Part shown: positions 8,618-13,203 of the stretch, one piece after another | How positions within the stretch are numbered: position 1 is the stretch's first letter | How the letters are laid out: each line of letters begins with the position of its first letter | Source: Candidatus Gallacutalibacter pullistercoris | GTDB taxonomy: Bacteria > Bacillota > Clostridia > Oscillospirales > Acutalibacteraceae | Assembly: GCA_018710915.1 (NCBI GenBank) | Contig: DVIY01000258.1 | Coordinates: 1 to 35,573 of the forward strand | Reading direction: 5' to 3' | Length of the DNA stretch: 35,573 nt | The notes under the pieces: generated by a model | What the model was told of the DNA's origin: nothing | Databases searched by the model: none | Seen by the model: the letters and a program-made list of their open reading frames with translations, nothing else | Made by a program: the position numbers and the translations under genes

Positions 8618-10852
8618 TCAGCCGTTATGGCGGGGCTTATTGGTGTTGGCAATAAAGCCGTTGCTTGCACGGGGACGGTCGTCATGGCGGCGGTGTCCGT
8701 CACGGCGGTCATCACGGCGGCGGGGAGCATCAGAAATGGTGTTCTCCGGCACCATGCCGTCCAAATCAATGAGAGCGTCACGGCGGGACAGGTTCAGGCG
8801 ACCCTTGTCGTCGATTTCCAAAACCTTGACCTTGACCACATCGCCTACATCTACCACGTCGGTGACTTTCTCGGTGCGCTTCACGTCCAGACGGGAAATG
8901 TGCACCAGGCCTTCCTTGCCGGGAGCGATTTCCACAAAGGCGCCGAAGTCCATAATACGGGTAACCTTGCCGGTGTAATAGGTGCCCGGCTCAGGGTCAT
9001 TGACAATAGTATCGATAATGGTCATAGCGCGTTCGCACTTCTCCTGATCGATACCGGAAACGAACACGTGTCCGTCTTCTTCCACGTCCACCTTGACCTC
9101 GCACTCAGCGCAGATCTTCTGGATGACCTTTCCGCCGGAACCAATGACCTCGCGGATCTTGTCCACGGGAATCACGGTGGAGAGCATCTTGGGCGCATAC
9201 TTGGAGAGTTCCGGACGGGGCTCGGGAATGGCCTTGAGCATGATCTCATCGATGATATAATCGCGGGCCTTGTGGGTCTTCAGCAGGGCTTCCTTCACCA
9301 TAGCGGGAGTCAGGCCGTTGATCTTCAGATCCATCTGAATGGCGGTAATGCCCTTATGGGTACCGGCAACCTTGAAGTCCATGTCGCCGAAGAAGTCTTC
9401 CACGCCCTGAATGTCCACCATGGTCATCCAGCGCTCGCCCTCGGTAATCAGGCCGCAGGAAATACCGGCTACGGGAGCCTTAATCGGCACGCCGGCATCC
9501 ATCAGCGCCAGGGTGCTGCCGCAAACGGAGCCCTGAGAAGTAGAGCCGTTGGAGGACAGAACCTCGGACACCAGGCGCAGGGTATAGGGGAATTCCTCTA
9601 CCGGCGGGATAACTGGCACCAGGGCACGCTCTGCCAGAGCGCCGTGACCGATTTCACGACGGCCGGGGCCGCGGCTGGGCTTGGTCTCGCCTACGGAGTA
9701 GGAGGGGAAGTTGTAATGGTGGATATAGCGCTTGGACTCTTCATCGTCGATGCCGTCCAGCAGCTGGCAATCGCTGACCGGGCCCAGGGTCGCAACGGTG
9801 AGCACCTGGGTCTGGCCGCGGGTAAACATACCGGAGCCGTGCACGCGGGGCAGCAGTCCCACTTCGGCAGCCAGCGGGCGGATTTCGTCCATGCCGCGGC
9901 CGTCTACGCGCTTCTGCTCGTCCAGCAGCCAGCGGCGCACGATATATTTCTGGGTGCGGTACATGCAGTCGTCAATGAGAGCTTCCTGCTCGGGGTAAAT
10001 GGGGTCAAAGTGCTCGTGCACTTTCTCGTAGATGGGCTTCAAACGCTCGTCGCGGACGGTCTTGTCATCGGTGTCCATGGCGAACTTCACGTCCTCCATA
10101 GCGAATTCCTTGATAGCCTCGATCATTTCCTCCGGCGGCAGGTTGCTGGGATATTCAAACTTGGGCTTGCCGATTTCGGCCTGGATGCCCTTAATGAATT
10201 CGATGATATGCTGGTTAGCCTTATGGCCTGCAATGATGCCGTTGTACATATCTTCGTCGGAGATCTCGTTGGCGCCTGCTTCGATCATGGCGATACGGGA
10301 ATCGGTAGAAGCAACGGTCACAGCCATCTGGGAAACCTTGCGCTGCTCGGCGTCGGGGTTGATAACGAGCTCGCCGTCAATCATACCCACGCTGACAGCG
10401 GAAATCGGGCCGTTCCACGGCACATCAGAGATGGACAGAGCAATGGAGGTACCTACCATTGCGGCAATCTCGGGAGAGCAGTCCTGATCCACAGACATAA
10501 CGGTGCAGACAATAGAAACGTCATTGCGCATATCCTTGGGGAACAGGGGACGGATGGGACGGTCAATCACGCGGCAAACCAGAATCGCCTTGTCGGTGGG
10601 ACGGCCTTCTCTTTTCAGGAAAGAGCCGGGAATCTTGCCCACGGAATACAGCTTCTCTTCATAGTCTACAGACAGGGGGAAGAAATCCACACCTTCACGG
10701 GGCTTGGCGGCAGCGGTTACCGCTACATGCACCACGGTTTCGCCATAACGAACCAGGCACTCGCCGTTGGCCAGCTGTGCCATTTTTCCGGTTTCCACGA
10801 CCAGCGGACGGCCGGCAAATTCGGTTTCAAATACGCGGAATTTCTCGAACAT
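8618..10852 (-). CDS. pnp: Polyribonucleotide nucleotidyltransferase (PNPase)
   Basis: 744 aa; two RNase PH domains, KH (VIGSGGKVIQKI) and S1 domains. Confidence 0.98.
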   Translation of the reverse strand: MFEKFRVFETEFAGRPLVVETGKMAQLANGECLVRYGETVVHVAVTAAAKPREGVDFFPLSVDYEEKLYSVGKIPGSFLKREGRPTDKAILVCRVIDRPIRPLFPKDMRNDVSIVCTVMSVDQDCSPEIAAMVGTSIALSISDVPWNGPISAVSVGMIDGELVINPDAEQRKVSQMAVTVASTDSRIAMIEAGANEISDEDMYNGIIAGHKANQHIIEFIKGIQAEIGKPKFEYPSNLPPEEMIEAIKEFAMEDVKFAMDTDDKTVRDERLKPIYEKVHEHFDPIYPEQEALIDDCMYRTQKYIVRRWLLDEQKRVDGRGMDEIRPLAAEVGLLPRVHGSGMFTRGQTQVLTVATLGPVSDCQLLDGIDDEESKRYIHHYNFPSYSVGETKPSRGPGRREIGHGALAERALVPVIPPVEEFPYTLRLVSEVLSSNGSTSQGSVCGSTLALMDAGVPIKAPVAGISCGLITEGERWMTMVDIQGVEDFFGDMDFKVAGTHKGITAIQMDLKINGLTPAMVKEALLKTHKARDYIIDEIMLKAIPEPRPELSKYAPKMLSTVIPVDKIREVIGSGGKVIQKICAECEVKVDVEEDGHVFVSGIDQEKCERAMTIIDTIVNDPEPGTYYTGKVTRIMDFGAFVEIAPGKEGLVHISRLDVKRTEKVTDVVDVGDVVKVKVLEIDDKGRLNLSRRDALIDLDGMVPENTISDAPRRRDDRRDGHRRHDDRPRASNGFIANTNKPRHNG

Positions 10853-10946: not shown

Positions 10947-11009
10947 CACAGCTGTCCTTCTTCCAGAAACAATTTCAATACTTCTCACAGGGGTTCCAGA
11001 TAGCCTAAA

Positions 11010-11035
11010 GGCAGGCGGCTATATGGCCGCCTGCC
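11010..11035 (-). terminator. GC-rich hairpin between rpsO and pnp (weak terminator/attenuator or processing site)
   Basis: Perfect 10-bp stem GGCAGGCGGC/GCCGCCTGCC with 6-nt loop; weak U-run on minus (CCUUUAGG). Confidence 0.6.
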
Positions 11036-11069
11036 CTTTTCAGCTTTCTGTGAAAAATGCTTCCGCAAA

Positions 11070-11333
11070 TTACTTACGGATACCCAGCTTGGCAATGATT
11101 GCACGATAACGCTCGATGTCAACCTTCATCAGGTAGTTGAGCAGGTTACGGCGCTGGCCAACCATCTTCAGCAGGCCACGACGGGAGTGGTGATCCTTCT
11201 TGTGGGTACGCAGGTGATCGGTTAGGTCATTGATGCGCTTGGTCAGAACAGCGATCTGCACCTCGGGGGAGCCAGTGTCGCCCTCGTGCATAGCGTATTC
11301 CTTAATAATTGCGGTCTTTTCTTCTTTCAACAT
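11070..11333 (-). CDS. rpsO: 30S ribosomal protein S15
   Basis: 87 aa; [51 protein letters not shown]. Confidence 0.99.
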
Positions 11334-11340
11334 TGTAATT

Positions 11341-11396
11341 CCACCTTTTCTGCGGCCATGCCGCTATAGATTCCCTCATTCACAGAAAAAGGCTGG
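11341..11396 (-). promoter_or_regulatory. rpsO leader structure able to sequester the Shine-Dalgarno
   Basis: On minus: CCAGCCUUUUUCUG pairs with CAGAAAAGGUGG, which contains the SD; inner GCGGC-aug-GCCGC hairpin. Confidence 0.6.
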
Positions 11397-11452
11397 TGAA
11401 CTCCCCGTACGGGGCTTTACCCTTTATCCGGGAAAGGGGTTGCAACTGTAGT

Positions 11453-11481
11453 ATTATAGCACGGGGAAACTGCTTTGTAAA
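11453..11481 (-). promoter_or_regulatory. Sigma-A promoter of rpsO
   Basis: On minus: TTTACA (11476-11481), 17-nt spacer, TATAAT (11453-11458). Confidence 0.75.
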
Positions 11482-11525: not shown

Positions 11526-12452
11526 TTATCTTTTCCAGAAAGGCTCTTTCCATTCCCGCTCTGCAATTTTCCGGGCCAGCACGCCGTTTTCCAAAATCTC
11601 GTTTTTCAGCTCATCCAGGCTGTCGAATTTCTTTTCCGGGCGAATAAAGTCCAATAGTTCCACCGGAACTTTTTTTCCGTACAGGTCACCGGAAAATTCA
11701 GGAATCCAAGTTTCTGACAAGGCACAGTCAGAACCCACGGTGGGTTTCACCCCAATATTGGTCACGCCGTAATATTTTTTACTATCCACTTCTACCAGCG
11801 ATGCGTATACGCCAAAGCGGGGCAGAACATATCCCGCCGGAAACGGCTGATTGATGGTAGGAGTTCCCCAGGTGCGCCCGAGCTGGCGGCCATGGGTTAC
11901 CTCAAAATCATAGCCGAAAGGCCTTCCCAGCAGCTGCCCGGCCTGCTGCACGTCTCCCTGTTCCAGACAGGCGCGAATCCGCGTGGAACTAACCGGCTCG
12001 CCGCCAATTGCAACCGGCGGCACGACACAAAGCTCAATTCCCTTTTCCCGGCACAGTGTCTTCAACAATTCGGCGTCACCCCTGCCATTTTTTCCAAATC
12101 GGAAGTTAAACCCACAGCAGAGCTTCCGAACCCGGCATACCTGGTACAGGGCATCCACAAAGTCCTCGGGTTCCATATCACGAATCTGGTCAAACGACAG
12201 CAGATAGACAGTGTCCACCCCTATTTCTTCCAGTAAATCCAGCTTTTGTTCATTGGTAGTGAGCAGGGGAACGGGTTTTTCTTTCAGAGAAGCCGATGGG
12301 TTCTGCTGGAATGTCACTACTGCTGGAAGCAATCCATGAGAAGAAAGCGTATTGCCAATCACCTGCCGGTGACCAAGGTGCAGTCCATCAAAGCTGCCCA
12401 ATGCTGCCGCCAATTCTCCGGTAGATGGCTGCATCTGTTTATAGCATTTCAT
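11526..12452 (-). CDS. ribF: Bifunctional riboflavin kinase/FAD synthetase
   Basis: Start set at MKCYKQMQPS; ALGSFDGLHLGHRQVI, SSTRIR, GRPFGYDFEVTHGRQLGRTWGTPTIN. Confidence 0.95.
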   Translation of the reverse strand: MKCYKQMQPSTGELAAALGSFDGLHLGHRQVIGNTLSSHGLLPAVVTFQQNPSASLKEKPVPLLTTNEQKLDLLEEIGVDTVYLLSFDQIRDMEPEDFVDALYQVCRVRKLCCGFNFRFGKNGRGDAELLKTLCREKGIELCVVPPVAIGGEPVSSTRIRACLEQGDVQQAGQLLGRPFGYDFEVTHGRQLGRTWGTPTINQPFPAGYVLPRFGVYASLVEVDSKKYYGVTNIGVKPTVGSDCALSETWIPEFSGDLYGKKVPVELLDFIRPEKKFDSLDELKNEILENGVLARKIAEREWKEPFWKR

Positions 12453-13203
12453 CTTGCCCTCTTCTCCCTTCCGAAATCCTTTCTTGGCTTTGACACTGCG
12501 CCCAGCGGCCACAGCAGACAAAGCCCAGCTGTTCATAAAATGCGCGGTTCTCCCGTTCGCTTCGGAACAGAAAAATCTCCCGTCCCGGAAGCTGCCCAGC
12601 CAGCCGCTCTATCATTTGGCTTCCCAGCCCCCGATGGCGAAACGGCGGACAAACTGCTGCTGCGGTCAGCAAAGCCGCCGTATCGGTTACTGCCAGTGCC
12701 AGCGCACAGGCTGCCGGTTTGCCATCCTCTTCCGCCAAAACTGCTGCCGCTGTCCCATGGCGCAGCCGGTGGGATGTATCCAGATAAAACGGTTCAAACT
12801 CCGGCACCGGAAAATGTTCCCCTTCACAGTCGGAGAGCACCTGATACAACGCGCGTGGCGAAGGAAAATCCGCCGGAACCGGTACCGGCTCGCCCGGCTG
12901 TCTGCGGTGCAGAATGGGCCCAGCTTCTATTGGACTCAATCCCAGCACCTGTGCGGCCTCTTCTGCACATAAAACCTCATCCACACCACAGGAAGCAATA
13001 AACAGCGCGGTCTCTTCTGTTTCCTGCGGAATACCGGCAATGGTCAGCACACCATCCATGCGGGAAAACAGACACCCGTTCCCCTGCCATACATCCAGAA
13101 AGGGAACGTTTATCCCATATGCCTGCACCGCAGAGACAATGCGCAGTGTAAAGGGGTCACGCGGCTGGGGCAAAGCCCCGCTGTCGGTCACAAGGGAGAT
13201 CAC
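12439..13203 (-). CDS. GNAT-family N-acetyltransferase
   Basis: 254 aa; AAVCPPFRHRGLGSQMIERL acetyl-CoA loop; FYEQLGFVCCGRW C-terminus. Confidence 0.85.
   Translation of the reverse strand: MISLVTDSGALPQPRDPFTLRIVSAVQAYGINVPFLDVWQGNGCLFSRMDGVLTIAGIPQETEETALFIASCGVDEVLCAEEAAQVLGLSPIEAGPILHRRQPGEPVPVPADFPSPRALYQVLSDCEGEHFPVPEFEPFYLDTSHRLRHGTAAAVLAEEDGKPAACALALAVTDTAALLTAAAVCPPFRHRGLGSQMIERLAGQLPGREIFLFRSERENRAFYEQLGFVCCGRWAQCQSQERISEGRRGQDEML

Follow-up and report, generated by a model that had tools for sequence, protein, structure and literature searches.

A candidate S15-responsive rpsO leader with an additional apical hairpin in a member of the Bacillota

The analyzed window, a 35,573-nt stretch of contig DVIY01000258.1 from Candidatus Gallacutalibacter pullistercoris, contains upstream of rpsO a leader that is a real and conserved regulatory element according to its architecture, covariation and distribution. 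With good confidence, this leader can be regarded as an S15 autoregulatory operator of the Bacillota kind, in a variant with an additional hairpin (P3), in which a pseudoknot between the apical loop and the ribosome-binding site (RBS), stabilized by S15, would block the RBS. Autoregulation of rpsO by S15 via the leader is very likely, judging from sequence comparisons. The S15-leader reading is strongly supported, since a conserved covarying leader abuts rpsO and carries, besides a GU/GC step like that of the rRNA site of S15, a strand that can pair with the RBS. The kind of element proposed in an earlier note on this DNA, an S15 autoregulatory leader, is thus retained, but the pairing that was thought to sequester the Shine-Dalgarno (SD) sequence is not. 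The same note had left a choice between a known S15 leader and a new variant. On the best reading of the sequences, the leader appears to be the P3-bearing variant of an S15 leader family widespread in Bacillota, and not an unrelated new class; the variant is found in the order of the window and in its family. This family is most likely Acutalibacteraceae, since one of its genomes has a leader nearly identical to that of Anaeromassilibacillus senegalensis (L187 and L035).

Locus and extent of the leader

ribF and rpsO are 192 nt apart, and the leader occupies part of this gap (Table 1). The promoter TTTACA-17-TATAAT, previously assigned to rpsO itself, was found with 11/12 matches as the top promoter-like site in the region, and 68 of 72 family leaders have an equivalent promoter in front of them (6.2 expected from shuffles). 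If transcription begins ~7 nt past the -10 element, the length of the leader is ~113 nt, in agreement with the earlier estimate of roughly 110 nt. Since no terminator-like site was found on the minus strand of the leader, translational control is preferred over transcription attenuation. The fold of the leader strand is no more stable than that of shuffles (z=-0.15), and therefore thermodynamic stability alone gives no evidence.

The scan with Rfam ribosomal-leader models, which had been proposed as a check, gave no match in the window; RF00114, the E. coli S15 leader model, left the window leader unmatched at both the gathering and a relaxed threshold. This says little about the window, because Rfam did not match any of 20 rpsO leaders sampled from relatives and from other Bacillota either.

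Table 1. Positions of the genes and leader elements in the window
Feature	Position	Strand	Remarks
ribF	11526-12536	-	same strand as rpsO and pnp
Sigma-70 promoter TTTACA-17-TATAAT	11453-11481	-	-35 at 11481-11476, -10 at 11458-11453
rpsO 5' leader	11334-11446	-	from sequence; start placed ~7 nt after the -10 element
P1 5' strand CCCUUUCCCGG	11428-11438	-	last two G are part of the GU/GC step
P2 5' strand AUAAAGG	11421-11427	-	
P3 hairpin CCCC-GUAC-GGGG (CCCCGUACGGGG)	11403-11414	-	inserted in the apical loop of P1+P2
Anti-RBS strand UUCACC	11395-11400	-	3' of P3, in the apical loop
P2 3' strand CCUUUUU	11386-11392	-	placed in the SD-pairing helix in the earlier note
P1 3' strand CUGUGAAUGAGGG	11373-11385	-	partners in the GU/GC step: C11385 (of G11428) and U11384 (of G11429)
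GCGGC-AUG-GCCGC hairpin	11352-11364	-	outside the conserved core
RBS strand GGUGGA	11340-11345	-	complementary to UUCACC; pseudoknot with P1/P2
rpsO (30S ribosomal protein S15, 87 aa)	11070-11333	-	S15 equivalog TIGR00952, E=3.4e-40
pnp (polynucleotide phosphorylase)	8618-10852	-	next gene downstream of rpsO

Conserved architecture and covariation

One architecture recurs across the relatives: a long helix P1+P2, P3 in its apical loop, and an RBS-complementary strand in the same loop. The pattern common to these leaders is YNCGG-N5-GG, the loop, UUCACC-NN and CC-N5-CUGNG, followed by the RBS GGUGA/GGUGG. The GU/GC step (G11429·U11384 and G11428-C11385) is invariant, lies 9-11 nt up from the P1 base and resembles the GU/GC motif in the rRNA site of S15. 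In 16S rRNA, the motif consists of G666-U740 and G667-C739, and the step of the window is presumably oriented to the P1 base as these pairs are to the rRNA junction. At the P1 base, the flanks AACC..GG.GA are conserved in the short form of the leader described below, and the model resolves no third arm there like that of the three-way junction in rRNA. The CCCCGUACGGGG hairpin, noticed earlier upstream of the SD-pairing region, is present and corresponds to the covarying P3. The GCGGC-AUG-GCCGC hairpin is likewise present; read by eye, it was seen only in the genus of the window and in one further leader (L027).

Among leaders anchored by sequence alone (n=73, with anchors fixing the GU/GC and GG/CC positions), the P2 core was paired in 62% in register versus 30-39% in shifted registers, and several P1/P2 positions covaried (z 4-10). 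Alignment A1, comprising 51 leaders of relatives with the genus of the window left out, had a covariation score of 0.378 versus 0.155±0.012 for shuffled alignments and <=0.16 in slid registers. Changes on both sides were found in 20 of its 24 pairs; in P3, this applied to all 5 pairs. The percentage paired in A1 is biased upward, because pairing score was among the criteria for selecting the seeds; the test on the 73 sequence-anchored leaders is free of this bias. RNAalifold independently predicted the P1-top/P2 helix on the alignment. Thus, P1, P2 and P3 covary strongly, and for the leader as a whole this rules out a lack of covariation, which the earlier note regarded as refuting.

The covariance model R1 was built from A1, and hence without the genus of the window. 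Its sole match in the window (11440-11374, minus strand, 70.9 bits, E=5.8e-18) was also the sole significant match in the 2.35-Mb genome. R1 matched 85 of 120 family genomes, 33 of 97 genomes in a sample of the order and few others in the phylum sample, where E<0.01 was reached by one genome of the same order (G365) and one other (G377). Among the matches listed, those compared with rpsO positions lay just upstream of rpsO. One family member (G186) has two rpsO matches and two R1 leader matches (C26:28374-28439 and C42:1586-1651); it may be a mixed bin, because contamination of this genome is 5%. A second, weaker R1 match (E=0.002) was noted at G036:C12:69340-69423 (+), on the strand opposite to the rpsO leader and ~5 kb away from it.

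As for the loop-RBS pairing, UUCACC and GGUGGA together with P1/P2 would form an H-type pseudoknot; in the window, a linker of 27 nt connects P1 with the RBS strand. The loop CAC stands opposite the RBS GUG, with covariation at the positions on either side (N1, p=0.0008; N2, p<0.0002). In the family, complementarity of the loop to its own RBS was 15.11 versus 14.54±0.15 for permuted partners and 9.8 for shuffled loops; the corresponding values for 82 short-loop leaders from other Bacillota were 13.43, 12.58±0.17 and 10.3. Loop and RBS thus fit their own partners above permuted ones by about 4-5 SD, with a modest effect size and with support resting on few positions, because the highly conserved SD leaves most pairs invariant. 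Co-changed loop and RBS partners are AUGCACC/GGUGUAU (L258), UCUGCC/GGCAGG (L259), ACACC/GGUGU (L114) and UUUAUCC/GGAUAAA (L087). In the leaders L259, L262 and L263 of Bacilli, the loop UCUGCC pairs with GGCAGG right at the GUG start codon and not with the SD.

Leaders of other Bacillota and known S15 operators

The leaders of other Bacillota, Bacilli among them, have the same helix with a loop of 7-12 nt and no P3. Alignment A2 of 54 such short-loop leaders had a covariation score of 0.439 versus 0.154±0.012. The G/U letters of the GU step were present in 71 of 82 short-loop leaders, G not being a selection criterion. The covariance model R2, made in this analysis from the short-loop leaders and describing a related form rather than a published definition, matched 93 of the 120 genomes sampled from the phylum; among the Bacilli sampled, it matched 45 of 61. 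Where R2 matches were compared with rpsO, those listed lay immediately upstream of the gene, except in G458 of the Bacilli sample, where the match is on another contig. The short-loop architecture is also present in the genome of L257, whose S15 is 96% identical to B. subtilis S15.

On the window leader, R2 gave no significant detection (6.7 bits, E=8.6), and the P3 insertion is a likely cause. A two-block motif that allows free insertion, designed after the P3 insertion had been seen and trained only on the A2 short-loop leaders including Bacilli, placed the window leader first (33.8 at 11442-11371, minus strand), with 8.5 for the best unrelated window site and <=7.4 for shuffled leaders. Within the family, loops of >=20 nt hold a hairpin of >=4 bp in 65 of 69 cases, and two family leaders (L007 and L008) have 15-nt loops and no P3. 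R2 matches L008 (E=0.006) and L223 (E=0.002), and R1 matches the genome of L007 (E=3.5e-8). With the short P3-less loops set against the family hairpins, P3 would therefore be a hairpin inserted into a shared leader in the lineage of the window, or else lost elsewhere.

The GU step itself differs in some short leaders. In Clostridium and relatives (L108, L111 and L112), CUAAG/CUUGG replaces the G-U of the GU/GC step by A-U. In the Bacilli leaders L179-L181 and L257, the last of them near B. subtilis, the step is apparently a G/G opposition (UUGG..GAGG, read by eye), as is described for the Thermus operator with its G-G mismatch (PMC4684408).

The operator of Geobacillus (B. stearothermophilus/G. 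kaustophilus), like the leader of the window, lies upstream of rpsO in a member of Bacillota and is associated with translational control. The GU/GC step is common to both: by description (PMC4684408), it lies roughly one turn from a junction in the Geobacillus operator, and in the window leader it lies about one turn from the base of its helix. The window leader has the extra P3 in its apical loop. The determinants named in that paper are a GU/GC motif and, at a distance of one turn, a junction. Both seem to be imitated by the G. kaustophilus operator, and mutating either of them alters S15 recognition. Repression acts at translation initiation (PMC10931766). A Geobacillus locus was looked for by S15 identity to PDB 1A32, with a query that agreed with the PDB chain at each of the 88 aligned residues; the closest S15 in the sampled genomes was 84% identical, and no Geobacillus genome was found among them. 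The shared clade and features indicate that the validated Geobacillus operator, known here by description, probably belongs to the same Bacillota leader family. The loop-RBS pair is UUCACC/GGUGGA in the window, whereas CUCC/GGAG is common in other Bacillota.

Other S15 operators share less with the window leader. The E. coli rpsO leader (RF00114) also has an RBS pseudoknot and a U-G/C-G motif recognized by S15 (PMC10931766), but it is published as independently derived, and its Rfam model does not match the window. Mycobacterial rpsO likewise has a pseudoknot, and a U-G/C-G motif is required for its repression by S15 (PMC8470358, PMC10931766); by description, this pseudoknot lies upstream of the initiation site, whereas in the window the RBS itself would be paired. 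The operator of Thermus thermophilus is comparable as an rRNA mimic blocking ribosome binding (PMC10931766), but, by description, what it mimics is the three-way junction, and a G-G mismatch stands in place of GU/GC (PMC4684408).

Proposed mechanism and alternative explanations

In the mechanism suggested by these comparisons, the GU/GC step ~ten nt above the base of the long P1/P2 helix would mimic the GU/GC motif of the 16S rRNA site of S15. S15, the presumed ligand, would bind this helix when it is in excess of free rRNA and would stabilize the H-type pseudoknot in which UUCACC, located 3' of P3, is paired to the RBS GGUGGA. With the RBS paired, 30S subunits could not start on rpsO, and translation would be repressed; when S15 is scarce, the loop-RBS helix would open and rpsO would be translated.

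Another way of hiding the SD had been put forward in the earlier note, in which CCAGCCUUUUUCUG pairs with the SD-containing CAGAAAAGGUGG and encloses the GCGGC-GCCGC hairpin. The 12-bp complementarity is exact letter for letter and is mostly kept in three congeners (12, 11, 11 and 12 of 12 pairs, counting the window), and the helix could be a transient alternative conformer. However, it takes up the P2 3' strand and cannot coexist with P2. Its pairs have a predicted probability of ~0.01, and the energy of the full structure is about -21.8 kcal/mol versus -30.3 kcal/mol for P1+P2+P3 with the GCGGC hairpin, i.e., ~8.5 worse. In 73 family leaders, the excess of own-partner pairing was z=0.4 for this helix versus z=5.7 for P2. 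In two congeners (L002 and L003), U-to-C changes in the P2 3' strand are compensated in the P2 partner (AUGAAGG and AUAGAGG), with 6/7 P2 pairs kept, whereas each of these changes breaks one pair of the CCAGCCUUUUUCUG/CAGAAAAGGUGG helix. Nor can the 12-bp helix enclose the complete 5-bp GCGGC hairpin as written, because both use C11352. The helix was rejected as a conserved state because of its z value, its pair probability and its clash with P2, and its part as the sequestering state is extremely improbable; what stands of it is the complementarity.

The window leader might also be an S15 operator of independent origin that only resembles those of other Bacillota, given that selections readily yield RNAs that bind S15 (PMC5100602), that several of the known S15 leaders are unrelated to each other (PMC4137082) and that the short-loop R2 misses this leader. 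Such an origin is improbable in view of the order of elements, the invariant positions and the flanks, all the same as in other Bacillota, as well as the two-block scores (33.8 versus 8.5) and the P3-less intermediates of the family with their matches to R1 and R2. A conserved leader with some other function (an RNA thermometer, mRNA stability or RNase processing, or response to another ligand) would fit the circumstances that S15 is a predicted ligand and that GC-rich hairpins could affect decay. It is nevertheless very improbable, as the leader adjoins rpsO in diverse genomes, its GU/GC step is the rRNA determinant of S15 itself, and S15 operators are proven in Bacilli (PMC4684408, PMC10931766).

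S15 leaders are a standard case of one protein acquiring different RNA regulators. R1 (with P3) and R2 (without P3) describe leaders that had no Rfam match in the 21 sources searched, and they give an alignment-based and testable mechanism, the loop-RBS pseudoknot. Within this one leader family, the expression platform and the presence of P3 vary, and the protein-binding helix is constant. A speculative and rather unlikely extension is that the pseudoknot has shifted its target along the RBS across Bacillota (GGAG, GGUG, GGUGGA, or GGCAG by the start codon) with the S15 helix fixed, and that the junction hairpin added in the clade of the window creates a P2/P3/pseudoknot three-way junction, a second and differently placed imitation of the rRNA junction.

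Outside the leader, the rpsO-pnp gap holds a strong inverted repeat at 11006-11040 (minus strand), GGCAGGCGGC-CAUAUA-GCCGCCUGCC, followed by UUUAGG, which we take to resemble the E. coli rpsO-pnp intergenic hairpin (processing or partial termination).
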